Assembly: GCF_947492555.1 (NCBI RefSeq)
Contig: NZ_CANLNE010000003.1
Coordinates: forward strand, 186,001 to 250,000
DNA: 64,000 nucleotides
Origin: an uncultured Roseobacter sp.
GTDB taxonomy: Bacteria > Pseudomonadota > Alphaproteobacteria > Rhodobacterales > Rhodobacteraceae
Direction of reading: 5' to 3'
Shown here: positions 1,444 to 19,013 of the stretch, piece after piece
Layout of the letters: the number at the start of each line of letters is the position of its first letter
How positions within the stretch are numbered: position 1 is the stretch's first letter
Made by a program: the position numbers and the translations under genes
Notes under the pieces: model-generated
Told to the model about the DNA's origin: nothing
The model's database searches: none
Seen by the model: only the letters and a program-made list of their open reading frames with translations

Positions 1444-1941
1444 TCAGGCGCCTTTAAGAGCACCGAGGATCAAGTAGAGGGCAAGAGCCATGCCAAGTGC
1501 GAGCCCCATGGGGAATTTCTTGCCCTGATCCCAGCTGGCCCAATGGGGCGCCAGGTTGCGCAGGCCGGTGGCGCGCGCAATGCGGTGGGTGACGAAGGCG
1601 GCAAGCAGTGATGCTGCGAGCAGCGCCATGATCAGCCGCAGGTCAGGCAATGCCACGTAAGGTGCTGCGGCTGCTATGAATTTCGCATCGCCAGCCCCCA
1701 TGGCCCCGATCCCGTTGAGCAGGATGCCAAGGATCAGCATGATTGCCAGTTGCGCCAATCGCCACAGGTACACATCAAGGCTGGGCATTGCAAAAGGCCC
1801 AATCACCACGAAAACCAATGCCAGTACGATCACTGTCTGGTTGGTGATCTTCATCCGCGACAGGTCGGTGAAGGCCACGTAAAAGCACAAGGGCAGCACG
1901 AATGGCAAAAACCACCAAGCGGAAGAGGCCGTGATTGCCAT
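1444..1941 (-). CDS. cpaA: Prepilin peptidase, A24 family (CpaA/TadV)
   Basis: An integral-membrane aspartyl protease of 165 residues that should cleave the leader of Flp-type prepilins at the cytoplasmic face of the inner membrane. The two catalytic aspartates of the A24 family are visible: Asp26 in FTDLSRMKI and Asp85 in the GAGDAK motif. The remainder is mostly hydrophobic helices. The length matches the short TadV/CpaA type, which lacks the N-terminal methyltransferase domain of PilD. It follows a TPR lipoprotein by 13 bases on the same strand, inside the Tad locus, which supplies the likely substrates (the two Flp pilins near 11.5-12.0 kb). Confidence 0.93.
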   Translation of the reverse strand: MAITASSAWWFLPFVLPLCFYVAFTDLSRMKITNQTVIVLALVFVVIGPFAMPSLDVYLWRLAQLAIMLILGILLNGIGAMGAGDAKFIAAAAPYVALPDLRLIMALLAASLLAAFVTHRIARATGLRNLAPHWASWDQGKKFPMGLALGMALALYLILGALKGA

Positions 1942-1954
1942 GGGGCGCCTGCCG

Positions 1955-2800: not shown

Positions 2801-2831
2801 GTTGTGCGTCCTTTTACTGCTCTTACCTCAA

Positions 2832-3413
2832 TTACGGCGTTGGACGGATCAGGAAATCACTGCTGCCACGCCGGACCAACTTATAGTCGTCGGTTTGTAA
2901 GGCCGTTGTAGCAGAATTTTCGGATTTTGCGAGTGCTAAGCGCAAGTTGTCGCGAATTGCGACACTTTCGCCATTGTCGAGGGCAAAGGCACGTTTGAAA
3001 ATCTGCTCTGCCTCGACCGTTTTGCCCGCTTCCATGAGCACAACGCCGAGATTGTTCCAGTCTTCCGGCTGCGCGCCCTCGGAGGCAATGGCACGGCGCA
3101 GAAGGGTTTCAGCCTGACCCAAGCGGCCCAGCCCAAGGTTGGCACTGCCCAAGCCCGCAAGGATTTCAGCGTCAATCTTGCCTCGATCAAGAGCGGCACG
3201 GTTGAAGGATCTAATCGCCAGTTCGTATTCCCCGGCTGCAATCAGGCGATGACCGACTTCGACCCCATCCACCGCATCAGCGTTCAGGTCAACGCCGGGG
3301 GCATCAATCTGACCCTCGGGAAGGGAACTGCCGCCCGTGTTGCAGGCGGCAAGTCCGAGACCGGCGATTAGTAAGGCAGCGGGCCAAGACGCCCGCGTCA
3401 GCCTTGATGTCAT
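2832..3413 (-). CDS. tadD: TadD-like TPR lipoprotein
   Basis: 193 residues with a signal peptide and lipobox LAAC (Cys at about residue 24), followed by tetratricopeptide repeats including ASEGAQPEDWNNLGVVLMEA. The ATG at 3413 overlaps the last base of the upstream tadC stop codon (TGATG arrangement), indicating translational coupling. Position directly after tadC and the pairing of lipobox with TPR repeats fit TadD, an outer-membrane lipoprotein needed for Flp pilus assembly. It is shorter than many TadD proteins. Confidence 0.85.
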   Translation of the reverse strand: MTSRLTRASWPAALLIAGLGLAACNTGGSSLPEGQIDAPGVDLNADAVDGVEVGHRLIAAGEYELAIRSFNRAALDRGKIDAEILAGLGSANLGLGRLGQAETLLRRAIASEGAQPEDWNNLGVVLMEAGKTVEAEQIFKRAFALDNGESVAIRDNLRLALAKSENSATTALQTDDYKLVRRGSSDFLIRPTP

Positions 3414-4396
3414 CAGTTAGCGCCCATGTTTCCCAGTTGCGTGATGCCGTGTACCGAAGGGCCGACCAGGATGATCAGCAGTGGCGGCACGGTCAACATC
3501 ATAGTGGCAAGGGTCATCTTGGTTGGCAACTTGTTTGCGGCCTCTTCCGCGCGCATCACGCGCTTGTCCCGCATTTCGCCAGCGTAAACTCGAAGGGCTT
3601 CGGCGATGGATGTCCCGAAGGTTGCGGACTGGATCAGAACGGTCACGAACGAGGATACGTCCTGTACGCCACAGCGTTCACCCATATCGTTGAGCACCGT
3701 AACCTTGTCTTTACCAGCCTTCATCTCATAGGCAACCATGTCGAACTCCTGCGCGAGCGCGGGGTAGGAGGCGTGCAGCTCGCGCGCCACGCGGACGATG
3801 GATTGATCGAGCGATTGGCCCGCCTCGACGCAGACCAGCATCATGTCCAGACTGTCAGGGAAACCGCGGGTGATTTCCTCCTTACGCATCTCGACCCGGC
3901 GGGTCACCCAGTAGCTGGGCAGATAATATCCGACACCGCCGGGCACGATGAAGTAGATCATCATCTTGTTGCTGCTGAACCCTTCGCCACCGCCCAGAAT
4001 GATCAGGTAGACAAAGGCGCCGAGCAGCCCCAGGATTCCCAAGGCAAACTGCGCGAAATGGAAGATGCGCACCGCATCCTTGCTCTGATAACCCGCCTGC
4101 GTCAGCTGCAGTTGCTTCTTGCTGAGCGTGGCCACGTCCTTGGGCTCCAGGAAGCTGGCGAACTTTTGCAGCTGCTCGTTGCGTTCGCCCTGGCGCAGGC
4201 GCTGCTGCGGTTCCTTCGCCGCATTGGGCGATTGAACCGATTTCTTCAGCTTTGCCATTGGGTCTTCGGGCTGTTGCAGGATCAAGGTGACCGTCACCGC
4301 AACCATGATCAAACCGATGGTGCCAAGTATAATGATCGGGCCAAGGGGGCCAAGAAGTTCGATGATCATGGTGTTGAAAGAGCTTAAAAATTCCAT
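3413..4396 (-). CDS. tadC: Tad inner-membrane platform protein TadC (T2SS F family)
   Basis: 327 residues, a GspF/TadC-type polytopic inner-membrane protein. An N-terminal hydrophobic helix (IIILGTIGLIMVAVTVTLIL) is followed by a charged loop, a pair of central membrane segments near residues 110-160, a T2SSF domain with the conserved LDMMLVCVEAGQSLDQSI stretch, and a final C-terminal membrane helix. TadB and TadC together form the platform on which the CpaF ATPase drives pilin polymerisation. It lies 12 bases downstream of tadB and overlaps tadD by one base. Confidence 0.94.
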   Translation of the reverse strand: MEFLSSFNTMIIELLGPLGPIIILGTIGLIMVAVTVTLILQQPEDPMAKLKKSVQSPNAAKEPQQRLRQGERNEQLQKFASFLEPKDVATLSKKQLQLTQAGYQSKDAVRIFHFAQFALGILGLLGAFVYLIILGGGEGFSSNKMMIYFIVPGGVGYYLPSYWVTRRVEMRKEEITRGFPDSLDMMLVCVEAGQSLDQSIVRVARELHASYPALAQEFDMVAYEMKAGKDKVTVLNDMGERCGVQDVSSFVTVLIQSATFGTSIAEALRVYAGEMRDKRVMRAEEAANKLPTKMTLATMMLTVPPLLIILVGPSVHGITQLGNMGAN

Positions 4397-4408
4397 TGGA
4401 TCAGTTCC

Positions 4409-5371
4409 CTACACCTTGATGTCGGTCAGAATGCGCATCACCAGAAGGTTCAGTGCGAGTAGAATGCCCACGGTGAAACACGCAGGAATGAACAGCGCGT
4501 GGTCGCGCACCTCATCGTAGTAATTGGGGTCAGAGACGTTGATGACGATCAATGCCACGATGGGGAAGGCGGACAGGAACTTGCCGGACCATTTCGCCTC
4601 TGCGGTGATCGCTTTGACGCGGCGGAAGAGACGGAAGCGCGCGCGGATCACCTTGGCCAAACCGGCCAGAATTTCGGCGAGGTTACCGCCCGAAGTCTGC
4701 TGGATTGTCACGGCCACGGCAAGGAAGCGCAGATCCTGCATGTCCAGGCGTTCCGCCATTTCCTTGAGGGCATCACCCACATCGCGACCATAGGCGGATT
4801 CATCTGCAATCATGCCGAATTCCGAGGCCAACGGATCCTGAACTTCCTTGGCCACGATCTGGATGGCCGAGGAAAACGGGTGACCGACGCGCAAGCTCCG
4901 CACCATCAGTTCCACTGCATCGGGCAGTTGTTCTTCGATCATCGACAGACGTTTGTTCGCCTTGGAGGACACCCAGAAGTAGACTGCCCCGACACCAATA
5001 CCGACGGAGAGCAGGGCGCGTACGCCAACCTCCGTCGCGGTACCCACGGTCAATCCCATGAAGGCGACGCCACCCAGCAGCGCCATAACCATGATCAACT
5101 GGCGAGGCGTAAAGGCAATTGCGGCCTTTTGTGCTTTTTCACCGAGCAGGGAATAGAGCGGGATGCTCCGGCTTTTCATGTGCTGCTGCATTTCCTTGCG
5201 CAGCTTTTCCAGCACCTCTTCGCGACCATTGCCTTTGTCGAGCATTTCCAGCCGGCGATTCACGCGGCTGTTGAGGCTGATAGATTTGCCGAAGGTGACC
5301 AGATACAGGCCTTCGACCAGCACCAGTACGCCGATGAAAATCAAGCCGTAGATGATTGGTTCTGCACTCAT
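4409..5371 (-). CDS. tadB: Tad inner-membrane platform protein TadB (T2SS F family)
   Basis: About 320 residues with an N-terminal membrane helix (IYGLIFIGVLVLVEGLYLV), two central helices, a T2SSF domain containing LPDAVELMVRSLRVGHPF, and a C-terminal helix, the TadB arrangement. The chosen start is the ATG at 5371 (MSAEPII), which has an AGGA-type ribosome site and lies 11 bases after the cpaF stop codon; the frame is open further upstream but would run into cpaF. With tadC it forms the inner-membrane platform of the pilus. Confidence 0.94.
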   Translation of the reverse strand: MSAEPIIYGLIFIGVLVLVEGLYLVTFGKSISLNSRVNRRLEMLDKGNGREEVLEKLRKEMQQHMKSRSIPLYSLLGEKAQKAAIAFTPRQLIMVMALLGGVAFMGLTVGTATEVGVRALLSVGIGVGAVYFWVSSKANKRLSMIEEQLPDAVELMVRSLRVGHPFSSAIQIVAKEVQDPLASEFGMIADESAYGRDVGDALKEMAERLDMQDLRFLAVAVTIQQTSGGNLAEILAGLAKVIRARFRLFRRVKAITAEAKWSGKFLSAFPIVALIVINVSDPNYYDEVRDHALFIPACFTVGILLALNLLVMRILTDIKV

Positions 5372-5382
5372 TGTCCTGATCC

Positions 5383-6825
5383 TTATTCGGCCGCGATGGG
5401 CTCGTAGATGGAAGGTGGCAAGTCGTAACCCCACATGCGGAACCGTTCAGCATAGGCCGAGCGGACGCCAGTGGCGGTAAAGTGACCGATGATCTTGTTC
5501 TCGGGTGTCAGACCAACGCGCTGGTAACGGAAAATCTCCTGCATCGAGATGACCTCACCTTCCATGCCGGTGATCTCTGTGATCGATGTCATGCGGCGCG
5601 AGCCATCCTGAAGGCGCGAGGCCTGCACGATGAGGTTCACGGCCGAAGAGATTTGCGAGCGCACGGCCTTCAAAGGCATTTCGATCCCGGCCATGGCGAT
5701 CATGTTCTCCAGACGGCTCACCCCATCTCGGGCAGAGTTGGCGTGGATCGTGGTCATGGAGCCGTCGTGGCCAGTGTTCATGGCCTGCAGCATGTCGATG
5801 ACTTCCTCGCCGCGTGTCTCGCCGACGATGATCCGGTCGGGGCGCATCCGCAGGGCGTTCTTCAGACAGTCGCGGGGGGAGACCTCGCCCTTGCCTTCGA
5901 CGTTCGGCGGGCGGCTTTCCATCCGGCCCACATGGGTCTGTTGCAGTTGCAGTTCCGCCGTATCCTCGATGGTCAGGATGCGTTCAGCATTGTCGATGAA
6001 GGAACTCAGTGCGTTGAGGGTTGTCGTTTTACCCGAACCTGTACCTCCAGAGACGATCACATTGAGGCGCGTGGCGACGGCTGCTTGCAGATATGCAGCC
6101 ATTTCTTCGGTGAAAGCGCCGAATTCTACCAGATCATCGATACCCAACTTGTCTTTTTTGAACTTCCGGATGGAAACGAGGCTGCCGTCCACGGCCACCG
6201 GCGGTACCATCGCGTTGAAGCGCGAACCGTCCTTGAGACGGGCGTCCACGTAAGGATTGCTTTCGTCGACACGGCGGCCCACGGCGGAGACGATCTTGTC
6301 GATGATCCTAAGAAGGTGGCGTTCGTCCTTGAAGGTGACATCGGTCAGTTCCAGCTTGCCGGAGCGTTCCACGAAAATCTGTTGTGGCCCGTTCACGAGG
6401 ATATCGTTCACGGTTTCATCTTTCAGAAGGGTTTCGAGTGGCCCAAGGCCTGTCACTTCGTCATAGAGCTCGGACGTCAGGTTCTGGCGATCTTCACGGT
6501 TCAGAACGATGCTGCGTTCTTCCAGAAACTCGCTCGAAATCGCACTGATCTCCTGGCGCAAATCCTGTTCGGTCGCATGCTCCAGGGCTGAAAGGTTCAG
6601 GTTATCGAGCAGCACACGGTGGAGATCGAGCTTGATCTCGCCCATGCGTTCTTTGCGCTTTCGTTCCTTGTCCATCGGCGTGACCTGTGCCGACGCCGCC
6701 GGTGCCGCTTTGCGGGTTACCGCTGCCGCGGCTGCTGGCTTGGCCGACGCGATATCGGCGACGGGTGCTGCTTCCTTGCTCGCGGCAGGCGGGGTCGCCG
6801 ATGGCTTTTTGTACTTCGAGAACAT
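5383..6825 (-). CDS. cpaF: Tad pilus assembly ATPase CpaF/TadA
   Basis: A 480-residue secretion ATPase of the T2SSE/VirB11 family. It carries Walker A GGTGSGKTTT at about residues 259-268, an Asp-box/Walker B region (ERILTIEDTAELQL), and the His-box region GHDGSMTTIHANSARDG characteristic of this family. The N-terminus is Ala/Pro-rich and low complexity, and the middle holds the N-domain. It should hydrolyse ATP at the cytoplasmic side of the TadB/TadC platform to polymerise Flp pilin. It follows cpaE with a 19-base gap on the same strand. Confidence 0.96.
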   Translation of the reverse strand: MFSKYKKPSATPPAASKEAAPVADIASAKPAAAAAVTRKAAPAASAQVTPMDKERKRKERMGEIKLDLHRVLLDNLNLSALEHATEQDLRQEISAISSEFLEERSIVLNREDRQNLTSELYDEVTGLGPLETLLKDETVNDILVNGPQQIFVERSGKLELTDVTFKDERHLLRIIDKIVSAVGRRVDESNPYVDARLKDGSRFNAMVPPVAVDGSLVSIRKFKKDKLGIDDLVEFGAFTEEMAAYLQAAVATRLNVIVSGGTGSGKTTTLNALSSFIDNAERILTIEDTAELQLQQTHVGRMESRPPNVEGKGEVSPRDCLKNALRMRPDRIIVGETRGEEVIDMLQAMNTGHDGSMTTIHANSARDGVSRLENMIAMAGIEMPLKAVRSQISSAVNLIVQASRLQDGSRRMTSITEITGMEGEVISMQEIFRYQRVGLTPENKIIGHFTATGVRSAYAERFRMWGYDLPPSIYEPIAAE

Positions 6826-6844
6826 GCGCTATTCCTTTGGCGGA

Positions 6845-8077
6845 TCAGGCCGCTTTTACGTCATTGGTGTTCAACTCGTGGATCGATGCCGCCAGTTTCG
6901 CGATCTCGCGCCGCAGTGGGTTCTTGGGAGCGGATTGTGCAAGCGGCAGACCGTGATCGGCGCCCTGCGTGATGGGCTTGCCACCGTCGGGCATGTGCAC
7001 ATCAATCGAGATGCCGAGGCTTTCCGCCATCCGTTTCACACGAGCCTTGCCGCTGAGGTCGGTAAATTTTGGTGCACGGTTCATGACGTAGCGCAGTTTC
7101 TCGACCGGGAGTTCTTCGGCCTGCAACGCCCGCTTGAAACGCAGGGTGTTTTGAGCACAGCGCATGTCGAGCTCAACGGTTGCAAAGTAAACGTGGGCGG
7201 CGCTCAGGACCGCTTCGGACCAGCTGACCAGCGTTGAGGGCATATCGATCACCACGTAGTCAAAGTGCCGACGTGCCATATCGAGCACACGGTTCACGTC
7301 TTCGGCTGTGATGATGTCCAGTGGCAGCATTTCCATCGGCGCGGTCAGCACCTGCATCTTGTCCTGAAAGGTCAGCAGTGACTGGCCAAAAATCTCGTCG
7401 TCCATGCCTTCGGTGTCAGACAGCATATCGTAGACAACTTCGCGACGCGGCAGGTCGAGGAAGGTTGCGACAGCACCGTATTGAAGATCGAGATCCAGTA
7501 CGCAAACACTTGGGCCGTTTTCCTTCTCGGCTGTCGCCAGTTCCCAAGCCAGGTTGACGCCGAGGGTGGTAGCACCAGTGCCGCCAGCCAATCCGTGCAC
7601 AACGATCACCGCACCCTCTTTTTGGTTTGAGGATTGCAGGGTGGGGGCGGCGGCGGAGGCGGGCAACGCCTCTTCCTGCATGCGTACCCGTTCGATGGCT
7701 TCGCCCAATTCGTTTTCAGGAAGCGGGTAGGGGACAAACTCATCCGCACCCTGACGCAGCAAGGAATGCAGGGATGCGGGCGTCACGTCTTCAGCGATCA
7801 GAATGACCTTGATGCCACGCGCCTTGGCCTGCGTGATAATCTCACCCATGAGCGGCAGGTTGTCCTCGTCGGTTTCATCAATGGCGAGGGCAATGAATTC
7901 AAGCGCTTGCGCTTCCGGCTGTCCAAAAAATGCGAGCGCTTCAGCAAAACCGAGATCGCCCCAACTTTCGCCGAGGGCCAACTCCATATCTTCAATCAGC
8001 AAATCGAAGTTTTGCACATCGCGACTGACCGTGCAGGCGACGATAAGTGATGTATCCGGTTGCGGCATTGTGCTCAT
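6845..8077 (-). CDS. cpaE: Tad localisation protein CpaE/TadZ (receiver-like plus MinD-like ATPase)
   Basis: About 410 residues. The N-terminal 150 residues resemble an atypical receiver domain, and the C-terminal part is a ParA/MinD-type ATPase with a deviant Walker A reading GGTGATTLGVNLA, lacking the usual lysine between glycine and threonine, and the DLDLQYG motif. TadZ/CpaE proteins mark the cell pole for pilus assembly. The ATG at 8077 (MSTMPQ), preceded by a GAGG sequence, is preferred over an in-frame TTG eight codons upstream. It follows the CpaD-like gene after a 240-base gap, so it may have its own promoter. Confidence 0.92.
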   Translation of the reverse strand: MSTMPQPDTSLIVACTVSRDVQNFDLLIEDMELALGESWGDLGFAEALAFFGQPEAQALEFIALAIDETDEDNLPLMGEIITQAKARGIKVILIAEDVTPASLHSLLRQGADEFVPYPLPENELGEAIERVRMQEEALPASAAAPTLQSSNQKEGAVIVVHGLAGGTGATTLGVNLAWELATAEKENGPSVCVLDLDLQYGAVATFLDLPRREVVYDMLSDTEGMDDEIFGQSLLTFQDKMQVLTAPMEMLPLDIITAEDVNRVLDMARRHFDYVVIDMPSTLVSWSEAVLSAAHVYFATVELDMRCAQNTLRFKRALQAEELPVEKLRYVMNRAPKFTDLSGKARVKRMAESLGISIDVHMPDGGKPITQGADHGLPLAQSAPKNPLRREIAKLAASIHELNTNDVKAA

Positions 8078-8318
8078 TGCCTCGTCTTCCTTTGTGTTCA
8101 AGGGCGAGGCAGAAAGCCGATGGAGGATTGTTTTTTATGTCACCCCAACGTCCCCTGCGACCGCCCATGCCCAGCTCTGTGGCCGGACATAAGTGTCCCA
8201 TTGGAGGGAAAGTCGCAGTGAACTTGGGCGAGATTAGGGCTTAATCCGCCCAATTGTTGGGTATCTCGACACAATAACCGTGTTTGAGGGCGGATTTGTT
8301 GGAGTAGAGCCGGGGGCT

Positions 8319-8708
8319 CTACTCGCCTGTCGCTGTCGATACAGTGATGGCCTGGCCAGCGCTGCCAACATAGTCGCGATAAATCACGCGAGCATATTTT
8401 CCGTCCAGCCGACCCGTGCAATGTACGCGGTACACTGGATTTGCCGGAGAGCTCACAGGATCAAGGACAACCACCGGATCTTTTGGCGATGTGCCGATCT
8501 TGCCGGTCTTGTACGTGCTGCCGTTCGGGTTGCAGACATGGGCAACCATGTTTTGCATCGTTGCGTTGCCGAATTCGCCGCTGTCAAGCTGTGCTCCGGC
8601 TTCGCGGAACCATTTCCCGCCGCTTCCCTGTTCGCCGCACGCCGCGAGGGTCGCAAGACCGACAAGCAGGACAACTGCGTGTGTTTTCCGATATGTCAGG
8701 CGTTCCAT
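8319..8708 (-). CDS. Short CpaD-like lipoprotein of the Tad locus
   Basis: 129 residues with a lipoprotein signal peptide (lipobox LAAC, Cys at about residue 24). The stretch FGNATMQNMVAHVCNP resembles the C-terminal conserved part of CpaD (FGxAxxxNLAAxVAxP). CpaD proteins are usually about twice as long, so this is a reduced form keeping mainly the C-terminal signature. The ATG lies four bases after the cpaC stop codon, suggesting coupled translation with the secretin. Probably an outer-membrane-associated factor of the secretin. A perfect 10-bp inverted repeat (8302-8311 with 8315-8324) spans the stop codon. The CpaD link rests on this motif and on position. Confidence 0.72.
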   Translation of the reverse strand: MERLTYRKTHAVVLLVGLATLAACGEQGSGGKWFREAGAQLDSGEFGNATMQNMVAHVCNPNGSTYKTGKIGTSPKDPVVVLDPVSSPANPVYRVHCTGRLDGKYARVIYRDYVGSAGQAITVSTATGE

Positions 8709-8712
8709 CCTA

Positions 8713-10152
8713 TCACTCCATCACGTAGCCGTAGGACCCGCTGAAGTCTTGCTTGGCGACTTCGCCGGCGGCACCCCGGCGGGGTGCATTGGCGTTTCTG
8801 GTGGTCCGACCAAAGAGAAACAGATCCTGTTCGGTCGGCGGCTTGATCCGGTCAGTTGGCAAGGACAGGGCCTCGCCACGGGTAGGGGAAACCAGGTGGG
8901 CGGTGATGATGATCACCAGTTCCGTCTGGCTGCGTTGATAGTCCGCACTCCGGAACAGGGCACCCAGAATGGGCACATCACCGATCCAGGGCAGTTGCGA
9001 AGACTGATCGGTGAAGTCATCTTGCAAAAGGCCTGCAATCGCAAAGCTTTCACCGTCGCGCATCTCGACCGTCGTGGAGGTCTCGCGGCGCGAGAAGGCG
9101 TCAAGTTCAAACCCACCGCCCAGCGAAATACCATTGGAGGGATCAATTGCCGAGACCGCTGCGGAAAGCTGCAGATTGATGATGTCTTCGTCTACCACGC
9201 GGGGGACGAAGTTCAGCTCGACACCAAAGGGTTTGAATTCCACGCTGATCGTGTCGCTGTCTTGCGCGACTGGAACGGGATATTCGCCGCCCGCAAGGAA
9301 ATTCGCCTCCTGCCCGGACAGCGCAACCAGATTTGGTTCAGCCAATGTGCGCACGGCCCCTTTACGTTCAAGAGCTTCGAGCAAAATACCGACCTGTGTC
9401 GATCCGACGTTGAAGCCGAAGAGGACAGCACCAAAGTTGTCATTGCTAGACGGGATCAGGCCGTTGAGAGAGTTGGCAACGCCACCTGATGTGTTGGAAG
9501 TGCCGGTCCCGATCTGCCCGGTATCCCCGCCTGACAGCGGGTTATCCAGCGCCAGCGACGTGCTGAATGCCTTGGATACTGTGCGGTTCATCTCGGCAAA
9601 GCGTACTTTCAGCATCACCTGCTGAATGCCACCAACGCTCATCAGGTTGGACACTCTGTCCGGCGCGTAGCGCTGCGCCAGATCAAGTGCTTTTTGCAGT
9701 TTTTGAGAGCTGGATACCGTGCCGGACAAAACGATGCCATCATTCGCGGTGCGCACTTCAATGCGCTCGCCGGGAAGGATTTGGCCCAAACGCTCCTTGA
9801 ATTCTGTTACATCAGGTGCAACACGCACCTCGACATTGGTGATCAGCTGACCGGTTGCATCCAGCAGCGTCAATGTCGTCATGCCCGGTGTTTTGCCAAG
9901 CACGTAGATGCTACGGTCCGACAGGGACGAGATATCCGCGATGCCGGGATTGGCGATGCTGAGTTCGGCGAAAGGAATTTCGCTTTCAACGACAACCGCG
10001 CGGTTCATGGGAACCGCAAGTGTCTTGTTGGTTCCCTTGGTGACCACACGCAATGTGTCTGCTTGTGCCGTGACTGGTGCGGTAAGCGCCAGCGGTGACA
10101 CGCTTAGTGTCAGCCCCAAAAGGGCCGCTTTAAACATTCCATCAATTTTCAT
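8713..10152 (-). CDS. cpaC: Tad outer-membrane secretin CpaC/RcpA
   Basis: 479 residues with a cleavable signal peptide ending near TAPVTAQA. An N-terminal pilus secretin domain is followed by a BON-like segment (ANDGIVLSGTVSSSQKLQKA) and the C-terminal secretin core, with LVALSGQEANFLAGGEYPVP and LPWIGDVPILGALFRS, both typical of the family. It should form the outer-membrane channel for the Flp pilus. An AGG-containing ribosome site precedes the ATG. An intrinsic terminator belonging to cpaB lies just upstream, so cpaC probably starts a transcription unit of its own within 10153-10285. Confidence 0.95.
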   Translation of the reverse strand: MKIDGMFKAALLGLTLSVSPLALTAPVTAQADTLRVVTKGTNKTLAVPMNRAVVVESEIPFAELSIANPGIADISSLSDRSIYVLGKTPGMTTLTLLDATGQLITNVEVRVAPDVTEFKERLGQILPGERIEVRTANDGIVLSGTVSSSQKLQKALDLAQRYAPDRVSNLMSVGGIQQVMLKVRFAEMNRTVSKAFSTSLALDNPLSGGDTGQIGTGTSNTSGGVANSLNGLIPSSNDNFGAVLFGFNVGSTQVGILLEALERKGAVRTLAEPNLVALSGQEANFLAGGEYPVPVAQDSDTISVEFKPFGVELNFVPRVVDEDIINLQLSAAVSAIDPSNGISLGGGFELDAFSRRETSTTVEMRDGESFAIAGLLQDDFTDQSSQLPWIGDVPILGALFRSADYQRSQTELVIIITAHLVSPTRGEALSLPTDRIKPPTEQDLFLFGRTTRNANAPRRGAAGEVAKQDFSGSYGYVME

Positions 10153-10287
10153 GTGACCTGCCCTTTTTGATCACGCCTCGGTTTCGGGTCTTGGTGCCCG
10201 CATAGGCTGTACTCTGCGTCGGTTTTGTTTTTTTTGCAAGAATCAACGGGTTCTGCACCTGCCTTTATGTGGATAAATGGCAACAGA

Positions 10288-10326
10288 CAAAAAAATGAAA
10301 GGCGCCGCAGGGACGTGCGGCGCCTT
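10288..10326 (-). terminator. Intrinsic terminator after cpaB
   Basis: An 11-bp perfect stem pairs 10299-10309 with 10316-10326 (arm AAGGCGCCGCA, loop of six). Read on the minus strand it is followed by a T-rich tract (complement of the A run at 10288-10295). It sits about 20 bases after the cpaB stop codon and ahead of cpaC. Confidence 0.85.
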
Positions 10327-10346
10327 CGTAATGTGTTGGTTTTGCT

Positions 10347-11195
10347 CTAGTTTGTGCAGGGGATCGGGATCGAGACAACTTCCGCCCCACGGCGGGTTCT
10401 GATGCTGCATTCCCGCTTTTGCTCTACCTTGGGTGCAGGTGCTGCCTCCTTCAGACCGAGCAGAGAAACCTGATCGACCTCGATTTCGGAAAGCTCTGTG
10501 TCGTCGCCAACGCCCACAAGCGACAGCGACAGGCTGCCAGTAGACTGCGCCTGTGCAAGGGCAGCCACCTGTTCCGGGCGGACAGCGACCGTTACCGTCC
10601 GGGCAATCCGTGTGCCGTTGGTGGTCTTGTCGTCCTGGTCCACAGCGATTAGGCGGATGGAGGTATCAATCAGCTTGGTTACATCTTCACTGCCGCCGCC
10701 GAATTCCACGCGGCCAGTCCAGTATACGTCAACCCGGTCCCCCGGACGCAGGAAACCCGAAACGCCGCTGGCCACGTCTACCCGGATGGCAAAAGCACGC
10801 ATGCCCTTTTCCAGTCGGGTGGTCAGACCGATATCCTCACCGGGCTCGGTGACTTTTACCGCCAGCACGGCTTCGTCTTTCTCCATTGCCCGAACGATCA
10901 GGCGAGGTTCTTCTTCGTTTGCTGGGAACAGCACTTCGATATCACCAAAAGTACCTTCGGGGATCGCGGTCTGCGGCCAGGCAACGGGGCGCACATCTTC
11001 TTTTGTCAACCGTTCGCCATATCCCAATTCGCGTGTTGCGACGTAGACGATCTGGGTCGGTACAAGCTGCGCTTCATTCTGCTTGGCGCGCGCCAGTTCG
11101 GCCTGGTAAGTGCCGATGAAATTTTTTGCCATGTATACCGCGCCGCCAGCCAGCGCGAGCCCGGCCAGAAGCACCAATCCGAATATCATTCGCAT
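10347..11195 (-). CDS. cpaB: Flp pilus assembly protein CpaB/RcpC
   Basis: 282 residues with an N-terminal membrane anchor (MIFGLVLLAGLALAGGAV), a SAF-type domain (about residues 45-115, with ELGYGERLTKEDVRPVAWP) and the RcpC/CpaB C-terminal domain (GFLRPGDRVDVYWTG). CpaB proteins are periplasmic, inner-membrane-anchored partners of the secretin. A GAGG ribosome site lies 7 bases before the ATG. The last residues include two cysteines (ECSIRTRR and PIPCTN) that could form a disulphide bond. Confidence 0.93.
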   Translation of the reverse strand: MRMIFGLVLLAGLALAGGAVYMAKNFIGTYQAELARAKQNEAQLVPTQIVYVATRELGYGERLTKEDVRPVAWPQTAIPEGTFGDIEVLFPANEEEPRLIVRAMEKDEAVLAVKVTEPGEDIGLTTRLEKGMRAFAIRVDVASGVSGFLRPGDRVDVYWTGRVEFGGGSEDVTKLIDTSIRLIAVDQDDKTTNGTRIARTVTVAVRPEQVAALAQAQSTGSLSLSLVGVGDDTELSEIEVDQVSLLGLKEAAPAPKVEQKRECSIRTRRGAEVVSIPIPCTN

Positions 11196-11789: not shown

Positions 11790-12002
11790 TTAGCTGCTGC
11801 CGCTGGACGAAGATTCGCCGATGCTGCCAACTGTCTGGGTGCCCAGGAACGAAGATGTGGAGTCGGTCAGAGCTGTCGCGCCATCTTCGATGGACTGGTA
11901 AGCTGCGATCGCCAGGCCAACAACAGCGGCTGTCAGCACAACCCAGTCAACTGTCACGGCACCGTCTTCGTCTTTACGGAAGTTCTTGATAAATTTCATC
12001 AT
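11790..12002 (-). CDS. flp: Flp-type type IVb prepilin (copy 2)
   Basis: 70 residues with leader MMKFIKNFRKDEDG and pilin helix AVTVDWVVLTAAVVGLAIA, then a serine/glycine-rich tail ending SSSSGSS. Like copy 1 it has Asp-Trp where most Flp pilins have Glu-Tyr. A strong GGAGG ribosome site lies 8 bases before the ATG at 12002. It is the first gene of the Tad locus and probably the major pilin. The GESSSSGSS tail is absent from copy 1, so the surface properties of the two pilins would differ. Confidence 0.92.
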   Translation of the reverse strand: MMKFIKNFRKDEDGAVTVDWVVLTAAVVGLAIAAYQSIEDGATALTDSTSSFLGTQTVGSIGESSSSGSS

Positions 12003-12356
12003 GGTATGTCCCTCCAAAGGATCATTTAGATTTCACTTGCTAACCTTGCCGTCCTCAGTGACCGTTTCTCTCGTTTGGCCCGTCCGACTTGGTATGCAGC
12101 AATATAGCCAAGGGATTGGGGCATGATTTTGGCGGCAAATGTGACTTTTGAGGATTCGCCGTCGAAAATCGCCAGAAAAATCGTAACGCGATGAATCAGA
12201 AAGAAAAAAAAACTCTCCGATGTTTACATTTCATTAAAGTGACGCCCGAATGTGGCAAAATCGCCGCGTTCAAGGCCCGGATTTACTGGTGTGATGTGGG
12301 ATTCTCTGCGATGTTGGCTGCAAAACAACGCAGAAAACAGATCGCGAGCAGTCGAT
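12003..12356. other. Divergent intergenic region between flp2 and a transglycosylase
   Basis: These 354 bases separate two divergently read genes and should contain both promoters. The part nearest flp2 is relatively A/T-rich. No confident -35/-10 pair, sigma-54 site or RNA gene could be recognised. Confidence 0.4.
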
Positions 12357-13178
12357 ATGCGTATCCTACCATGTATCGCGGCCTTTGCCGTGGCGTTTTC
12401 AGGCGATTCCATAGAGGCCGAAACACCCAAACCCTTTCCTGTCTTCGAAGCGAAGCGGGTCGGGGTGCCAAAAACCGGGCAAAAACGGATTAAGGTGCAG
12501 ATTGACCCCGAGGCGCAGAAGGCAGCACTTGCGGTGCCGAAACCTGAACCGGAGCTGCCTGAAGCGGACGCACCGCCACCTGCCACGCAGCCTCTTGGCC
12601 AATACAGCTGGTTCTGGGACAGGGTGTCGCCCTCCATTTTCGACGTTCAGCCGGGACGACTCGAGGCCATCATGGATGTCATCACCGGGTCAGGGAAAAT
12701 TGCAGCCCCAAGATTGCAGCATATGCAGAGCATCGCGCAGGCCAATGGTGTCGAGATACTAAAGTCCACCATTGGAACGAAGGTATCACCCGCTTTGGTG
12801 CTCGCCGTGATCTCCGTTGAGTCATCTGGCAGGCCGGATGCCATCAGCAAGGCGGGGGCGCAGGGCCTGATGCAATTAATGCCCGATACGGCAGCACGCT
12901 TTGGAGTTCAGGACAGCCTGATTGCCGCCGAGAATATCGCAGGCGGTGTCAAATACCTTGATTGGTTGATGGGGGAGTTCGCAGGCGACCCGGTTCTGGT
13001 GCTGGCCGGGTACAACGCGGGCGAAGGATCCGTACGCAGCCACGAGGGCGTGCCACCCTTTGCCGAGACCCGGGACTATGTGCCCAAGGTTCTGGCCGCG
13101 TTTCAGGTTGCGCGCGGATTGTGCAAAACACCACCTGAATTGATTACGGATGGCTGCGTCTTTGCCGCCATGAACTAA
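12357..13178 (+). CDS. Lytic transglycosylase, SLT family
   Basis: About 273 residues from the ATG at 12357, which gives a signal peptide (MRILPCIAAFAVAFSG). A proline-rich linker (VPKPEPELPEADAPPPATQP) is followed by an SLT domain with the catalytic glutamate in VISVESSGRPDAISKAGAQG, the GLMQLMP motif and the NAGEGSV segment. It should cleave peptidoglycan in the periplasm. The frame is open upstream to a GTG at 12252, but that start would lose the signal peptide. It is divergent from the pilin genes, so it could open the wall for the Tad machinery; this is inference from position. It ends overlapping the convergent acetyltransferase gene by four bases. Confidence 0.9.
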   Translation: MRILPCIAAFAVAFSGDSIEAETPKPFPVFEAKRVGVPKTGQKRIKVQIDPEAQKAALAVPKPEPELPEADAPPPATQPLGQYSWFWDRVSPSIFDVQPGRLEAIMDVITGSGKIAAPRLQHMQSIAQANGVEILKSTIGTKVSPALVLAVISVESSGRPDAISKAGAQGLMQLMPDTAARFGVQDSLIAAENIAGGVKYLDWLMGEFAGDPVLVLAGYNAGEGSVRSHEGVPPFAETRDYVPKVLAAFQVARGLCKTPPELITDGCVFAAMN

Positions 13179-13465
13179 ACGCTGAAGACGTCGGCCCATT
13201 CAGGATGGCGCCGGCGTTGCGCGTTCACAAATGGGCAGAGCGGTACGATCTTGAAGCCTTGCTGGCGTGCATCTGCAATCAATCGGGCCACGAGAGCCTG
13301 TCCGGCACCCGACCCCCTAAGCGCATCCGGAACCGCCGTGTGATCGGCAATGACCGTTTGCGGTGAGAGAATGGAATATGTCAGGTCGGCTTCGTGCCCG
13401 TCCTGGACCAGCACATAGCGTCCCTTGGTACCATCAACACTGCGGGTGATGTCAAACTCGGACAC
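13175..13465 (-). CDS. Small GNAT-fold acetyltransferase-like protein (YjdJ type)
   Basis: About 96 residues. The stretch VPDALRGSGAGQALVARLIA is the acetyl-CoA binding motif A of small GNAT-like proteins of the COG2388 type, and PLCPFVNAQRRRHPEWADVF is their usual C-terminus. The substrate is unknown. The likely start is the GTG at 13465 (VSEFDITR, with GGGA 8 bases upstream); a GTG six codons earlier is also possible. Its stop codon overlaps that of the convergent transglycosylase. Confidence 0.82.
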   Translation of the reverse strand: MSEFDITRSVDGTKGRYVLVQDGHEADLTYSILSPQTVIADHTAVPDALRGSGAGQALVARLIADARQQGFKIVPLCPFVNAQRRRHPEWADVFSV

Positions 13466-13589
13466 TGAGTGTTCCCGTCGCACCGCACAATTTCAATGTT
13501 GTAGGCTTGCCTGCACTTGTCATAGGTTTCCTTGCCGTCGCGTGGGAGGGCCATTATGCGGAGCACTGTCCTCCGCCCGAGCACGCGAT

Positions 13590-14615
13590 CTATCGTGTCA
13601 GAGTGGCGCCCGCCGGGACATCTATTGTGACAAAACTTCCCGCGGCCCCGCGTCCGAGCTGCAAAGTTCCCTCAAGACCTTCGATCAGGCCGTTGACCAT
13701 GCGCCCGCCGACAGTGGTGGTGTCCGGCCAGGTCATGTAGTTCGGAATGCCCACGCCGTCGTCGGAAACGGTCACGCGCAGACCGCCAGCGCTGAGCTGC
13801 GTCATCCGCACCTCCACGAGCCCGGTATCAATGCGATCGAAAGCGTGCTGGAAGGCGTTTGTCAGTAGCTCCGCCACCACAAGCCCGACGCGGGAGGCGG
13901 TCTCGATTGGGATGTCGAGCGGGTCGATCTGCAGGTTAAGCCGAATACCGGAACGTCCATAGACATGTCCAATCGCGCAGCAGAGGCGCGACAGATAGCT
14001 ACCCATGTGGATACTGTCGCGGTTTGACTGCATATCAGACAGCTTCATTTCTTCGTAAAGCAGCTGCAGCGTTTCGATGCGCCGGGTCAGGGCAGCGTAT
14101 TCAGCCGGTACAGAGGTCGAATTCGACTGTTGCCGGATCATGCTGATGATCATCGACATATCCGCCTCGACCCGGTCCTGTACTTCTATCAACTGAGCGT
14201 TGATCTGTTCGGCCGTGTCGCTGCGCTCGCCGTGGCGTAACTCTTGCTGGACACCCATGAAGTACTGAACCTGCTCATTTTCATCAAAGATCGGCGCAAT
14301 CACCAACCTGTTCATGAAAGGCTCGCCGTTCGCACGGTAGTTCAGGAGGTCCACCGTTGCAGATTCTTTGGCCTCAATCGAGGTTCGGAGCAGGTCTACA
14401 GCCGCTTTTTCGGTGTTTTCGCCCTGCAGAAAACGGCAGTTACGACCAATAACCGCACTGCGCGCATACCCCGTTTGTCGTGTGAAAGCCTGATTGACAT
14501 AGACAATAGGGTTATCTTCGAGATGCGGGTTGGTCATGATCAACGGCAGCTGCGTGCGGCTGAACCCGTCGAAAGAGGTGTCTTCAATGAGCAAAGAATT
14601 TAGAGAATCTGCCAT
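13590..14615 (-). CDS. LOV-domain sensor kinase-like protein lacking the phosphoacceptor histidine
   Basis: 341 residues. Residues about 20-125 form a LOV photosensor domain: GRNCRFLQG holds the flavin-adduct cysteine Cys60, Asn92 and Asn102 are the flavin-contacting asparagines, and Gln123 sits in the last strand. Residues about 135-215 align with a HisKA_2 dimerisation region, but where the family has HRVKN this protein reads QDRVEAD, placing Asp147 at the phosphorylated histidine. The ATPase domain is intact: N-box AELLTNAFQHAF (Asn253), G1 box SDDGVGIP and G2 region GGRMVNGLIEGLEG. Cytoplasmic. No response-regulator gene lies next to it. Blue-light sensing is well supported; the signalling output is not. 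It may act through a non-histidine route, or serve only as a light-dependent binding partner. Confidence 0.88.
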   Translation of the reverse strand: MADSLNSLLIEDTSFDGFSRTQLPLIMTNPHLEDNPIVYVNQAFTRQTGYARSAVIGRNCRFLQGENTEKAAVDLLRTSIEAKESATVDLLNYRANGEPFMNRLVIAPIFDENEQVQYFMGVQQELRHGERSDTAEQINAQLIEVQDRVEADMSMIISMIRQQSNSTSVPAEYAALTRRIETLQLLYEEMKLSDMQSNRDSIHMGSYLSRLCCAIGHVYGRSGIRLNLQIDPLDIPIETASRVGLVVAELLTNAFQHAFDRIDTGLVEVRMTQLSAGGLRVTVSDDGVGIPNYMTWPDTTTVGGRMVNGLIEGLEGTLQLGRGAAGSFVTIDVPAGATLTR

Positions 14616-15066
14616 ATCCGGCGCGCCTCACGCTGCTCGAGTTACGCGCCACGCGGCGCGCTGTTCATATGTGCCGCGTGCGACGTATCGCCCACACGTG
14701 CTCCGCAGGCTGTTCACATCACCTTGACGCAAGTGCTGCGGCGCATCCGTTTTGCCGCTGGTATGTGCAGTCCCTGTGCCAGCCTTCCTACGAGAATAGA
14801 GGATGCCACGCCCTTCGGAGATGCAGGCAACCAGTGCCTGGCGATCTCGCAATACTCCATAGAGCGTCAGCGACGCTGTATTCTGCCGATTGTTCATCTC
14901 GCTCCCTGAGCCCGACCGAAAGACCGGACGTCTTCTGATGTACGATAACCGCTCGTTGATTGGCGATCATGTCATTCAACTGGGATTATAGAACGGCTTT
15001 GGCCTTGGTCAAACCACTTTGGCCACTTTCAGATGGAAGCTGCACTATCCTGCAGAAGTCCGGAGC
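14616..15066. other. Intergenic region upstream of the LOV protein
   Basis: 451 bases between topA's stop codon and the LOV-protein start, both on the minus strand. A minus-strand reading frame at 14628-14897 starts behind a GGGAG sequence (MNNRQNTASLTLYG) but has no recognisable family, and its second half looks like random G/C-rich coding. The promoter of the LOV gene should lie here. No RNA gene or terminator was recognised with confidence. Confidence 0.4.
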
Positions 15067-17649
15067 TCATGCTTTTTTAGCGACTGTTTTCTTCTTGGCT
15101 GGCGCCTTCTTTTTTGCAGCCGTCTTGCGGCGGCCCGTACCCTTTTTGGCAGCCTTTTCATCGATCAGCAGGATAGCTGCTTCAATGGTCAAATCGTCCG
15201 GTTCGGTGCCCTTGGGCAGCGTTGCATTGATCTTTTCCCACTTCACGTAAGGCCCGTATTTGCCTTCCATGATGCTGATCTGGCCGCCCTGATCCGGATG
15301 CTCGCCCAACTCCCGCAGCGTTTTGGCCGCGGCACCACGCCCGCCACGGCTGGCGACCTTTTCGGCGAGCAACTGCACCGCGCGGTTCATGCCGACGGTA
15401 AACACCTCATCAATGCTCTCGAGATTGGCGTTTGTGCCGCCGCGCTCCGAGGTTGAGGCCGCATGTTTCAAGTAAGGCCCATACCGCCCGATGTTTGACC
15501 AGACCGTCACGCCATCTTCGGGATGCGGGCCGATTTCGCGGGGCAGGGACAGCAGTTTGAGTGCCTGCGGCAGGTCCACATCCTCGGGCGGCCAATCCTT
15601 GGGGATCGACTGGCGCGGTGGCTTCTTGTTGTCCTCGGTGACCTCGCCACGTTGCACGTAAGGGCCGAAGCGACCCTTGAAGGCGTAGATCTTGTCGCCT
15701 GCGTCCTCGCCCAGCAGCTTGCCTTCGGGCGGGATGCCGCTGTCGTCTTCTTCACCGGGCGGACCGAAGGCGCGGGTGTAGCGGCATTCGGGGTAGTTCG
15801 AGCAACCGATGAACGCGCCGCCCGAGCGCGCGGTGCGCATGCTGAGCCGCCCGGCGCCGCAGTTGGGGCAGAGGCGCGGGTCGGTCCCATCCTCGTTGGG
15901 GGGAAACAGATGCGGCTCCAGCACCTCGTTGATCTTCTCCAGCACCTCGGTGATGCGCAGATCGGCGGTCTCAGAAATGGCGGCGGAGAAATCGCGCCAG
16001 AAGCGCCGCAGCACTTCCTTCCACTCAGCATCGCCGGCGCTTACGTCATCGAGCTCGTTTTCCAGATCGGCGGTGAAGCCATAGCCGACGTATTTACGAA
16101 AGTAATTCTCCAGAAACGCCGTGACGAGCCTGCCCTTGTCCTCCGGGATCAGGCGGTTCTTGTCCTTACGAACGTACTCACGGTCCTGAATTGTGGTGAC
16201 AATCGACGCGTAAGTCGAGGGGCGCCCGATGCCCAGCTCTTCCATCTTCTTGACCAGCGTGGCCTCGGTATAGCGCGGGGGGGGCTGGGTGAAGTGCTGC
16301 TCCGGCGTGACGGCGCGCTTGTCTATCTTGTCGCCCTGGTCGATCTGGGGCAGGCGCTTGTCGTCCTCATCCACCACATCGTCGCGGCCTTCCTCGTAGA
16401 CCCGCAGGAAGCCGTCAAAGAGCACCACCTGACCGGTGGCGCGCAGCATGATCTGGCCATCGGCGCTGCCCACATCGACCGTCGTCCGTTCCATCCGGGC
16501 GGCTTCCATCTGGCAGGCCAGCGTGCGTTTCCAGATCAGATCGTAGAGCTTGCGCTGATCCGCGTCAGAGGTCTTCAGGTCCTCCGCCTTGGTCATCATA
16601 TCGGTCGGGCGCACGCATTCGTGCGCCTCTTGCGCGTTCTTGGCCTTGTTCTTGTACATGCGCGGGCTGCCGGGCACGTAGTCTTTGCCATAAAGCGTCT
16701 CGATCGCGGCGCGCGCGGCCTGCACGGCCTCGGGCGCCATGTCGATGCCGTCGGTCCGCATATAGGTAATGTAGCCTGCCTCGTAGAGCCGCTGTGCTGT
16801 AGACATGGTCTGGCGCGCGCCCATGCCGAACTTGCGGCTGGCCTCCTGCTGCAGGGTTGAGGTCATGAAGGGGGCGGCGGGGTTGCGGTTGGCGGGCTTG
16901 GCCTCGACCGACTGTACCGTCAGATCGCGGGAGCTGATCGCCTGCACCGCCATTTCGGCCTGGGTCTGGTTCTCGATGTCAAACTTGCCGAGCTTCTTGC
17001 CCGCCAGCACCGTCAGCCGTGCCTCGAACTCCTGCCCGCGCGGGGTGGCGAGTTGGGCCTTGACCGACCAGTATTCGCGGTTGCGGAAGGCCTCGATCTC
17101 CATCTCGCGCTCGACGATGAGGCGCAGGGTGACCGATTGCACGCGGCCTGCTGATTTTGCGCCCGGCAGTTTGCGCCATAGTACCGGCGAGAGATTGAAG
17201 CCCACCAGATAGTCGAGCGCGCGGCGGGCCAGGTAGGCCTCGACCAGCGGCATGTCGACCTGGCGCGGGTTCTGCATCGCCTCGGTCACGGCCTTTTTCG
17301 TGATCTGGTTGAACACGACCCGGGAGACGGGGGTATCCTTCTTGATCGACTTGCGCTTGGTCAGCGCCTCCTGCAGGTGCCAGCTGATCGCCTCGCCCTC
17401 GCGATCAGGGTCGGTTGCGAGGATCAGCGCGTTGTCATCTTTCAGCGCATCCGCGATGGCCTTGACATGCTTCTTGCTGTCGGAGGCCACCTCCCAGAGC
17501 ATGTCGAATTCGTTCTCAGGGTCGACAGAACCATCTTTCGGGGGTAAGTCGCGGACATGCCCGTAAGAGGCCAGGACGGTGTAGTCACTCCCCAAATATG
17601 CGTTGATTGTCTTGGCTTTAGCCGGGGATTCAACAACTACAACTGGCAT
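15067..17649 (-). CDS. topA: DNA topoisomerase I
   Basis: About 860 residues, the type IA topoisomerase that relaxes negative supercoils. The N-terminal TOPRIM domain starts VVVVESPAKAKTI and includes ATDPDREGEAISWH. The catalytic tyrosine is Tyr296 in ITYMRTDGID. A four-cysteine zinc finger (LCPNCGAGRLS to GCSNYPECRYT) lies near residue 600, followed by several topoisomerase C-terminal repeats (KGRFGPYVQRG, GRYGPYLKH, EGKYGPYVKWE) and a lysine/alanine-rich basic tail. The ATG at 17649 (MPVVVV) is chosen since the conserved N-terminus starts there. It is the gene after dprA on the same strand, a common arrangement. Confidence 0.97.
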   Translation of the reverse strand: MPVVVVESPAKAKTINAYLGSDYTVLASYGHVRDLPPKDGSVDPENEFDMLWEVASDSKKHVKAIADALKDDNALILATDPDREGEAISWHLQEALTKRKSIKKDTPVSRVVFNQITKKAVTEAMQNPRQVDMPLVEAYLARRALDYLVGFNLSPVLWRKLPGAKSAGRVQSVTLRLIVEREMEIEAFRNREYWSVKAQLATPRGQEFEARLTVLAGKKLGKFDIENQTQAEMAVQAISSRDLTVQSVEAKPANRNPAAPFMTSTLQQEASRKFGMGARQTMSTAQRLYEAGYITYMRTDGIDMAPEAVQAARAAIETLYGKDYVPGSPRMYKNKAKNAQEAHECVRPTDMMTKAEDLKTSDADQRKLYDLIWKRTLACQMEAARMERTTVDVGSADGQIMLRATGQVVLFDGFLRVYEEGRDDVVDEDDKRLPQIDQGDKIDKRAVTPEQHFTQPPPRYTEATLVKKMEELGIGRPSTYASIVTTIQDREYVRKDKNRLIPEDKGRLVTAFLENYFRKYVGYGFTADLENELDDVSAGDAEWKEVLRRFWRDFSAAISETADLRITEVLEKINEVLEPHLFPPNEDGTDPRLCPNCGAGRLSMRTARSGGAFIGCSNYPECRYTRAFGPPGEEDDSGIPPEGKLLGEDAGDKIYAFKGRFGPYVQRGEVTEDNKKPPRQSIPKDWPPEDVDLPQALKLLSLPREIGPHPEDGVTVWSNIGRYGPYLKHAASTSERGGTNANLESIDEVFTVGMNRAVQLLAEKVASRGGRGAAAKTLRELGEHPDQGGQISIMEGKYGPYVKWEKINATLPKGTEPDDLTIEAAILLIDEKAAKKGTGRRKTAAKKKAPAKKKTVAKKA

Positions 17650-17861
17650 GTACTGGGGCACCTCTGGGTGAAATTTTCTGCGTCTATGCTCAAGCCAGAT
17701 GTGCTGTGCAAGCGGATTTTGTCAATCTGCTCATTCTTGTCGCACGCAGTTTTCCGCGTGGATAGCAGCGGCGCATCGGGTCAAATTCAATGGAAAATCT
17801 GGCTCCATCCCGGACGGAATCGGCTCTGGCATGGCGTGGCAAGATAACGTGCAGATAACAC

Positions 17862-19013
17862 TCAGGCGCGAGACAGCAGGCCGCCGGCGCGGCGTGTGAT
17901 TTTACCATCCATTTCGAGATCGAGCAGAACCGGTGCCGCATCCGCCGGTGCAACGGCCAGATCGCGGATCAACTGGTCCTCGGCCACGGGGGCGGGGCTC
18001 AGGCGCGACAGGATCTTGTTGTGCAACGCGGCCACTTCTCTCAACGCGGGGCGCTTTTTCTCTACGGTCTTGACCGGCGGCTGCAACGGCAGTTCCGGCG
18101 CGTTGCCATGCAAGGGGGTGAGCGCTTCCAACACGTCATCTGCACCGCGCACCAGTGTAGATCCCTCCCGGATCAGCTGATTACACCCGGCGGCGCGGGC
18201 GTCGAAGGGGCTGCCCGGGACGGCCAGAACCTCGCGTCCTTGGTCCAGCGCGTCCCGCGCCGTGATCAGGCTACCTGATTTTGCTGCAGCTTCGACGACA
18301 ACCGTCGCGCGGCTGAGCCCGGAGATGATGCGGTTTCGGCTCGGGAAGTGCCGCGCAATCGGCTGGAGCCCCATAGGCTGTTCCGACACCCGCACCCCGG
18401 CTGCCATTATGTCTTGCGCCAGCTTCATGTTTTCGGTGGGATAAATCACATCGACCCCACCTGCCTGCACCGCAACCGTGCCGGTGGCCAGGGCGGCAAG
18501 ATGCGCCGCCGCATCGACACCGCGCGCAAGGCCGGAGACGATCACGTAACCGGCGGCACCGAGATCGCGGGCGAGCGCCTTGGCCATGCGTGTGCCAAGG
18601 GAGGAGGCGTTGCGCGCACCCACAAGTGAAATCATCGGGCGTTTGAGAAGGCTTGGATCCCCCATAATCCATAGAAACGGAGGGGCGTCGTCCAGATCTT
18701 CGAGCAATTCGGGGTAGGCCGGGGTGCCCTGCATGATCAGGCGCGCGCCGACTTTGCGGGCGGCATTCAATTCGGCCTGCACCACGGCTTCGGGACAAAT
18801 CTGGTATTTTTCAACGCCGGCGGCACGCGCTACCTCAGGTAGCGCGGCCAGCGCGTTCTGCGCAGTGCCGTGTTCAGTCAGCAGTCGTTTATACGTCGTT
18901 ACGCCAACCCGGCGGGATCGCAACAGACGGAGACGGGAGAACTGTTCGTCTTCCGAGGTGGGTGGGAGTGGGGGGTGAGTGGAAGAAGGATTGTGGTCCT
19001 TGTCATCAGTCAT
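17862..19013 (-). CDS. dprA: DNA processing protein DprA
   Basis: 383 residues. The Rossmann-like core shows GARNASSLGTRMAKALA, SGLARGVDAAAH and FPSRNRIISGLS, all DprA signatures, and a C-terminal winged-helix-like segment ends KITRRAGGLLSRA. DprA loads RecA on incoming single-stranded DNA during transformation. The N-terminal 25 residues are polar and low complexity. It lies about 210 bases upstream of topA in the same direction. No other competence gene is present in the window. Confidence 0.95.
   Translation of the reverse strand: MTDDKDHNPSSTHPPLPPTSEDEQFSRLRLLRSRRVGVTTYKRLLTEHGTAQNALAALPEVARAAGVEKYQICPEAVVQAELNAARKVGARLIMQGTPAYPELLEDLDDAPPFLWIMGDPSLLKRPMISLVGARNASSLGTRMAKALARDLGAAGYVIVSGLARGVDAAAHLAALATGTVAVQAGGVDVIYPTENMKLAQDIMAAGVRVSEQPMGLQPIARHFPSRNRIISGLSRATVVVEAAAKSGSLITARDALDQGREVLAVPGSPFDARAAGCNQLIREGSTLVRGADDVLEALTPLHGNAPELPLQPPVKTVEKKRPALREVAALHNKILSRLSPAPVAEDQLIRDLAVAPADAAPVLLDLEMDGKITRRAGGLLSRA

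Follow-up and report, generated by a model that had tools for sequence, protein, structure and literature searches.

The window, by which we mean the whole 64,000-nucleotide stretch of DNA analysed here, carries on its minus strand an ORF at 13590–14615, which starts with ATG and encodes a 341-aa product. Pfam matched this protein with PAS_9 (residues 33–125), HisKA_2 (residues 144–218; E 5e-5, 23.8 bits, above the cut-off of 22.3) and HATPase_c_2 (residues 235–301), and its comparison with PDB 4r3a, the structure entry of the kinase EL346 of Erythrobacter litoralis, gave an E-value of 2.5e-89. The scores against the NCBIfam models of the blue-light-activated histidine kinase (NF052306, 169.1 bits) and of NifL (TIGR02938, 52.6 bits) stayed under the respective equivalog cut-offs of 450 and 242.45. 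From the ORF, the Pfam matches and the comparisons with 4r3a and with a further protein, L041 (see below), we describe the product as a LOV/DHp-like/GHKL protein and propose it as an ortholog of LdaP. The LOV domain spans approximately residues 20–126 (14238–14558), as delimited by the PAS_9 match and by aligning it with LOV domains, that of EL346 among them. It contains the motif GRNCRFLQ, as LdaP does, and codon 60 is TGC (14436–14438), which agrees with the flavin-adduct cysteine Cys60 named in an earlier, sequence-only reading of this DNA; the cysteine is present in all 38 aligned relatives that lack the phosphoacceptor His (His-less rows). Helix 1 of the DHp-like part, assigned from the HisKA_2 match, covers residues 140–166 (14118–14198) and includes the codons of Asp147 (GAC, 14175–14177), which falls in the alignment column of the phosphoacceptor His, and of Asp152 (GAT, 14160–14162). 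The GHKL or CA domain, supported by HATPase_c_2 and HATPase_c matches, occupies approximately residues 241–336 (13608–13895). It comprises the N box (residues 246–259, 13839–13880), with E249 in 38/38 and N253 in 37/38 His-less rows, the G1 box (residues 283–291, 13743–13769), with D285, G287 and G289 each in 38/38, and the G2/lid and C-terminal strands (residues 300–336, 13608–13718), with G304, G323 and G326 in 38/38 and G303 in 37/38. The ATP-binding motifs of the GHKL domain are thus present, as stated in the sequence-only reading for the N, G1 and G2 boxes, while the phosphoacceptor His of the H box is absent.

The ORFs around the gene include no adjoining response regulator, as had been noted before. 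From their sequences, we take the neighbours to be topA and a lytic transglycosylase gene, and a small GNAT gene (Acetyltransf_CG match) lies beside them. No scoA remnant was found in the gap between the LOV gene and topA (14616–15066), which is the site of scoA in relatives. The minus-strand genes at 1444–11195 presumably form a tad/cpa pilus operon.

The alignment to EL346 is gapless through EVQHRVKNHLAMIVSMIR against EVQDRVEADMSMIISMIR, so the register at position 147 is safe. The codon at 14177–14175 is GAC, EL346 has its His at that position, and the replacement of the phosphoacceptor by Asp147 is real. The earlier description of the altered HRVKN motif named the His alone, but K150, N151 and H152 of HRVKNH are also replaced, the whole block reading DRVEAD in the window protein. 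Of 19 genomes of the genus, among them that of the window, 18 have a full-length ortholog, and the His is missing from every one of these 18 copies; 11 have Asp and seven have Asn, that is, the Asp is not fixed among orthologs. In the nineteenth genome (G006) no ortholog was seen. There the scoB stretch starts at the contig end, with the GNAT and transglycosylase genes after it, and the absence is not firm because the locus breaks at that end. The dN/dS ratio was 0.01 to 0.09 in nine of ten close His-less pairs (dS was not computable in the tenth) and 0.06 to 0.37 in five His-bearing pairs. As the low ratios accompany a His that is absent in 18/18 copies, the change is due neither to chance nor to a sequencing error, the latter having been considered in the sequence-only reading. 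A phosphate-accepting His elsewhere in the helix had also been envisaged. Some His occurs within residues 136–166 in 19/38 His-less rows, although in none of these positions in the window protein, and no position has it in more than 6/38 rows; a substitute His in the helix was therefore ruled out.

The relatives were taken from the matches listed in a contig scan and from a family sample of 394 genomes out of a larger number, neither of which is exhaustive. With E ≤ 1e-40 as the limit for an EL346-like gene and the best five candidates scored per genome, so that a miss is not proof of absence, 40/394 family genomes were carriers; 19 had a His-less gene, one of them (G100) together with a His-bearing one, and 21 had only His-bearing genes. 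In a tree of 85 rows from among the matches listed, the 38 His-less rows formed one clade (95/95) nested in the His-bearing EL346-like rows, though the bootstrap had not settled and the long rows L087, L142, L152 and L082 could not be placed with certainty. When six motif columns were masked and four long rows were left out, 37 His-less rows made up one side of a branch with an SH-aLRT of 99. The set of 38 excludes L087, L092, L095 and L098 (the last three with an unaligned helix) and L002 (a near copy), and the His-bearing set excludes L088–L091, L103 and L152. Position 147 is His in 40/40 His-bearing and 0/38 His-less rows, the rows having been sorted by this very residue, while position 152 is H in all 40 His-bearing and D in 36/38 His-less rows. 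The two exceptions with H152, L040 and L058, are the earliest branches of the His-less clade. Positions 150 and 151 are variable across the clade as well, and R148 is kept in 36/38 rows. In this clade the His was lost once, an old change that the whole clade shares. A thirty-ninth His-less row, L087 from a Hellea MAG (1170–2105), stands outside the clade, although as a long row its place is unsure; it has Asn at the His position by a separate loss, a degenerate N box and no PpsR match in its genome.

The site rates suggest where constraint was given up. The two sets compared, each scaled to its own mean, were the 38 His-less rows and 26 rows with the His; L146, L082, L081 and L151 were also left out, and so were rows with less than 80% of the C-terminal part. 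The relative rate of helix 1 was 1.38 in the His-less and 0.49 in the His-bearing rows, that is, 2.8 times faster (permutation p 0.0002), while that of the LOV domain was unchanged (0.87 against 0.91). The CA domain as a whole was somewhat slower in the His-less rows (0.83 against 1.07, p 0.002) and its N box was somewhat faster (0.60 against 0.42, p 0.035). The comparison covered 10 regions, of which some were nested. The differences of helix 1 and of the H box (p 0.0002) survive strict correction, and those of the CA domain (0.002) and of G2 (0.004) are marginal under it. These rates indicate that the phosphotransfer block was abandoned, and that the clade kept both its light sensing and its ATP domain.

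A protein of this kind has been studied in Dinoroseobacter shibae. LdaP (Dshi_1135) is a 338-aa EL346-like LOV protein with Arg148 at the His position, which has a blue-light photocycle requiring the Cys for adduct formation (PMC10890935). Its autophosphorylation, tried with ATP, was not detected either as 32P label or as a Phos-tag shift, it contacts PpsR, the repressor of photosynthesis genes, in an E. coli test it lifted the repression by PpsR only in the dark, and the ldaP mutant of D. shibae is colourless (PMC10890935). Two details of the same report call for caution about this reading: one of the tested LdaP–PpsR fusion pairs gave a two-hybrid signal, and PpsR peptides co-purified with LdaP in the light too (PMC10890935). 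Among our relatives, L041 (genome G077) is 338 aa long, has GRNCRFLQ at 58 and Arg148 and lies inside the His-less clade; since length, motif and Arg agree with the published Dshi_1135, L041 was taken as ldaP. It shares 51% identity over 333 residues with the window protein. Both have the LOV–DHpL–CA layout, the GRNCRFLQ motif and no phosphoacceptor His, both hosts possess ppsR and photosynthesis genes, and both LOV genes lie beside topA. They differ in the residue at the His position and in the flanks, as ldaP stands in a topA–scoA–LOV–scoB locus (L179) like other members of the clade and the window gene has no scoAB at its sides. A subgroup of EL346-like LOV-HKs without the phosphoacceptor His has been mentioned in one sentence (PMC10359499). 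The window protein resembles it in being EL346-like with the His missing, a likeness of description and not of compared sequences, and the passages on this subgroup that we consulted give no function for it (PMC10359499). A literature search, mostly at the level of titles and beginnings of abstracts, revealed nothing that joins the His-less subgroup with LdaP, and no report of the clade-wide loss, of a tie to phototrophy or of the sco locus. What is already in print is that a His-less subgroup exists and what one protein of this kind, LdaP, does.

Were the His-less rows the LdaP clade, the genomes that carry them should belong to phototrophs. Every candidate was scored in the surveys of the reaction centre, of NepR and of PpsR in the same-genus genomes and named records. 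The reaction-centre family PF00124, surveyed in 57 genomes, was found in 34/35 His-less and 9/21 His-bearing genomes (Fisher p 6e-6), counts that are not independent and could reflect shared ancestry because the His was lost once in the clade; G006 had no reaction-centre match. In the family sample, PpsR (TIGR02040) was found by hand count in 18/19 His-less, 11/21 His-bearing and 136/354 other genomes, the best four candidates being scored per genome, so that a miss does not prove absence. The sole miss among the 19, G306, is a 77% complete genome with a reaction centre. PpsR was also present in 17 of the 19 same-genus genomes, missing from G006 and G016. Among the matches listed, 24 named records gave 5/5 for His-less, 5/18 for His-bearing and none for Hellea, where L063 comes from the same genome as G318 (their PpsR places are equal) and L085 likewise doubles G100. 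The G016 genome (L009) has a full-length His-less LOV gene, yet no PpsR, reaction-centre or NepR match, either because phototrophy was lost recently or because the protein has another partner there. Both G006 and G016 lack NepR together with PpsR, as if a unit of stress-response and photosynthesis genes had been lost whole.

The window genome itself has a reaction centre and ppsR. On its contig C5, bchF, a B12-binding PpaA-like gene, ppsR (a PAS-HTH protein matching TIGR02040) and a UbiA-family gene follow in this order. The PpsR box is TGT-N12-ACA (PMC10890935). In the 16 kb around bchF–ppaA–ppsR this pattern was observed seven times against 1.9 expected from single-base shuffles, and it is found at two places in the bchF–ppaA gap. 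It is absent from 12001–18000 of the window, where we accordingly see no sign of PpsR control over the LOV gene itself.

Many relatives carry the LOV gene between two genes that we take from their sequences to be scoA and scoB. The order scoA–LOV–scoB on one strand was counted by hand in 29/39 distinct His-less and 8/32 distinct His-bearing loci, the latter being those with long enough flanks (L073 and L078 were left out), and most of these loci have gaps below 80 bp and a position after topA. As both His-less and His-bearing genes occupy the scoA–scoB site, the gene most likely already stood at this locus when it lost the His. Of the eight genomes with a His-bearing gene at this site, one (G196) has PpsR. 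At ten of the 39 His-less loci, the window included, scoAB is gone, incomplete or fragmentary beside a full-length LOV gene; one of these, L158, has its contig end just upstream, which hides one side. The window genome has an undivided scoA–scoB pair (2428–3755 of L202, G000:C4:144000–151000) on another contig, away from the topA locus. The arrangement suggests that at the window locus the LOV gene outlived scoAB. In L155, L161 and L163, scoA fragments with 48, 32 and 119 aa matched lie beside the full-length LOV gene, a picture of an operon in decay.

Considering these results, we concluded that the protein is very probably the LdaP ortholog, an antirepressor that would bind PpsR in the dark, be switched off by blue light and do without phosphotransfer. 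The sequence-only reading had argued for another output, since this LOV photosensor has a seemingly intact ATPase site and lacks the usual phosphoacceptor, and in this it was right. In the mechanism we propose, the LOV domain would bind flavin and form a cysteinyl adduct at Cys60 under blue light, and the signal would pass through the DHp-like/GHKL module by partner binding instead of phosphotransfer. Binding of PpsR in the dark would derepress the photosynthesis gene cluster, and blue light would turn this antirepressor off. What our own analysis contributes to this view is the common descent with LdaP, the clade-wide loss of the His with the Cys and the ATP pocket retained, the co-occurrence with PpsR and the reaction centre, and the PpsR-type boxes in the window genome. 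That the window protein acts as LdaP does, with the same dark-on sign, we infer from this relationship, and at 51% identity the partner or the sign could have changed. The function of the gene would thus be mostly explained already, through LdaP: a puzzling His-less kinase-like protein is assigned to a family in which the single member studied is a regulator of bacterial photosynthesis, and the loss of the His appears as an old change of a whole clade that goes with phototrophy.

Another light-dependent output would be the general stress response, where the protein could serve as a light-set phosphatase or as a competitor for PhyR, the regulator on which LOV kinases of this family act. The nepR gene was found in 35/40 EL346-like carriers against 153/354 other genomes, contig C5 of the window genome contains PhyR, NepR and EcfG together with an HRVKNN kinase, and in Rubellimicrobium the LOV kinase RT-HK passes its signal to a PhyR (PMC12148442). 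However, the association, strong for the wider family, is weaker for the His-less rows (13/18 His-less against 22/22 His-bearing, with G100 counted as His-bearing), and 6/35 His-less genomes lack nepR, four of which (G181, G190, G221 and G417) have PpsR. Part of the association can be explained by linkage: of the 17 genomes of the genus with both nepR and ppsR, 16 (all but G001) have them on one contig, within 71 kb of each other in 15 and far apart in G004. The residue at His+4 acts in phosphatase activity in other HK families, and helix 1 is where a receiver would dock. In the His-less clade this presumed docking site is relaxed and the His+4 residue is A, T, S, Q, D, E, N, K, R or G; a phosphatase working through it was ruled out by this variability in the 38 rows, and a role in the stress response seems very unlikely to us. 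We regard it as a shade less probable still that the protein remains a kinase, its intact GHKL site phosphorylating a partner protein, or Asp147 or Asp152. The nearly invariant ATP motifs, the CA domain evolving more slowly than in His-bearing relatives and the prevalence of D152 would suit such an activity, but position 152 is still H in the first branches of the clade and Asp is not conserved at position 147. The latter position is Asn in 16, Asp in just 11, Ser in six, Arg in two and Ala, Gly and Glu in one row each, by which Asp147 was ruled out as phosphoacceptor and the Asp-linked reaction offered in the sequence-only reading became unlikely. Phosphorylation of a partner, also offered there, is not needed as an output, as LdaP, for which neither 32P label nor a Phos-tag shift was seen, works by binding PpsR (PMC10890935).

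The frequent position of the LOV gene between scoA and scoB could mean that it regulates the ScoAB CoA-transferase; yet the gene is full length at the ten His-less loci with a missing or broken pair, and the pair of the window genome stands undivided elsewhere, which makes this reading very improbable. Least credible of all is that the gene encodes a kinase in decay that no longer serves any purpose. Loss of the HRVKNH block and the faster evolution of helix 1 would fit decay, but the frames are open, the close pairs have low dN/dS, Cys60 and the ATP motifs are retained in the His-less rows and the mutant of the relative is colourless (PMC10890935).

Within the LdaP reading, the retained GHKL pocket may have a task of its own. 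Light-gated ATP binding, the third output offered in the sequence-only reading, may still apply. We put forward, tentatively and with more doubt than confidence, that the pocket, strongly constrained although phosphate transfer was not detected, takes up ATP or ADP and thereby gates the contact with PpsR, by which the photosynthesis genes would answer to both light and energy charge in a manner similar to NifL–NifA. If true, a kinase would have become, in the His-less clade, an antirepressor gated by nucleotide. The GHKL domain of NifL binds ADP, which tightens its hold on NifA (PMC9866876), and a term search of PMC10890935 for binding of nucleotides to LdaP gave no hit. NifL is similar in combining a flavin PAS sensor with a GHKL domain and in binding and controlling a transcription factor, but it senses redox state with FAD, inhibits NifA in an ADP-stabilised complex and is not an ortholog (PMC9866876). 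The stress-response set and the photosynthesis genes of the window genome (L194 and L206) lie on one 123-kb contig (G000:C5). At L195 (6414–7220, minus strand), adjacent small genes presumably encode an RsbW-type ATPase and an RsbV-type STAS protein, which they resemble.
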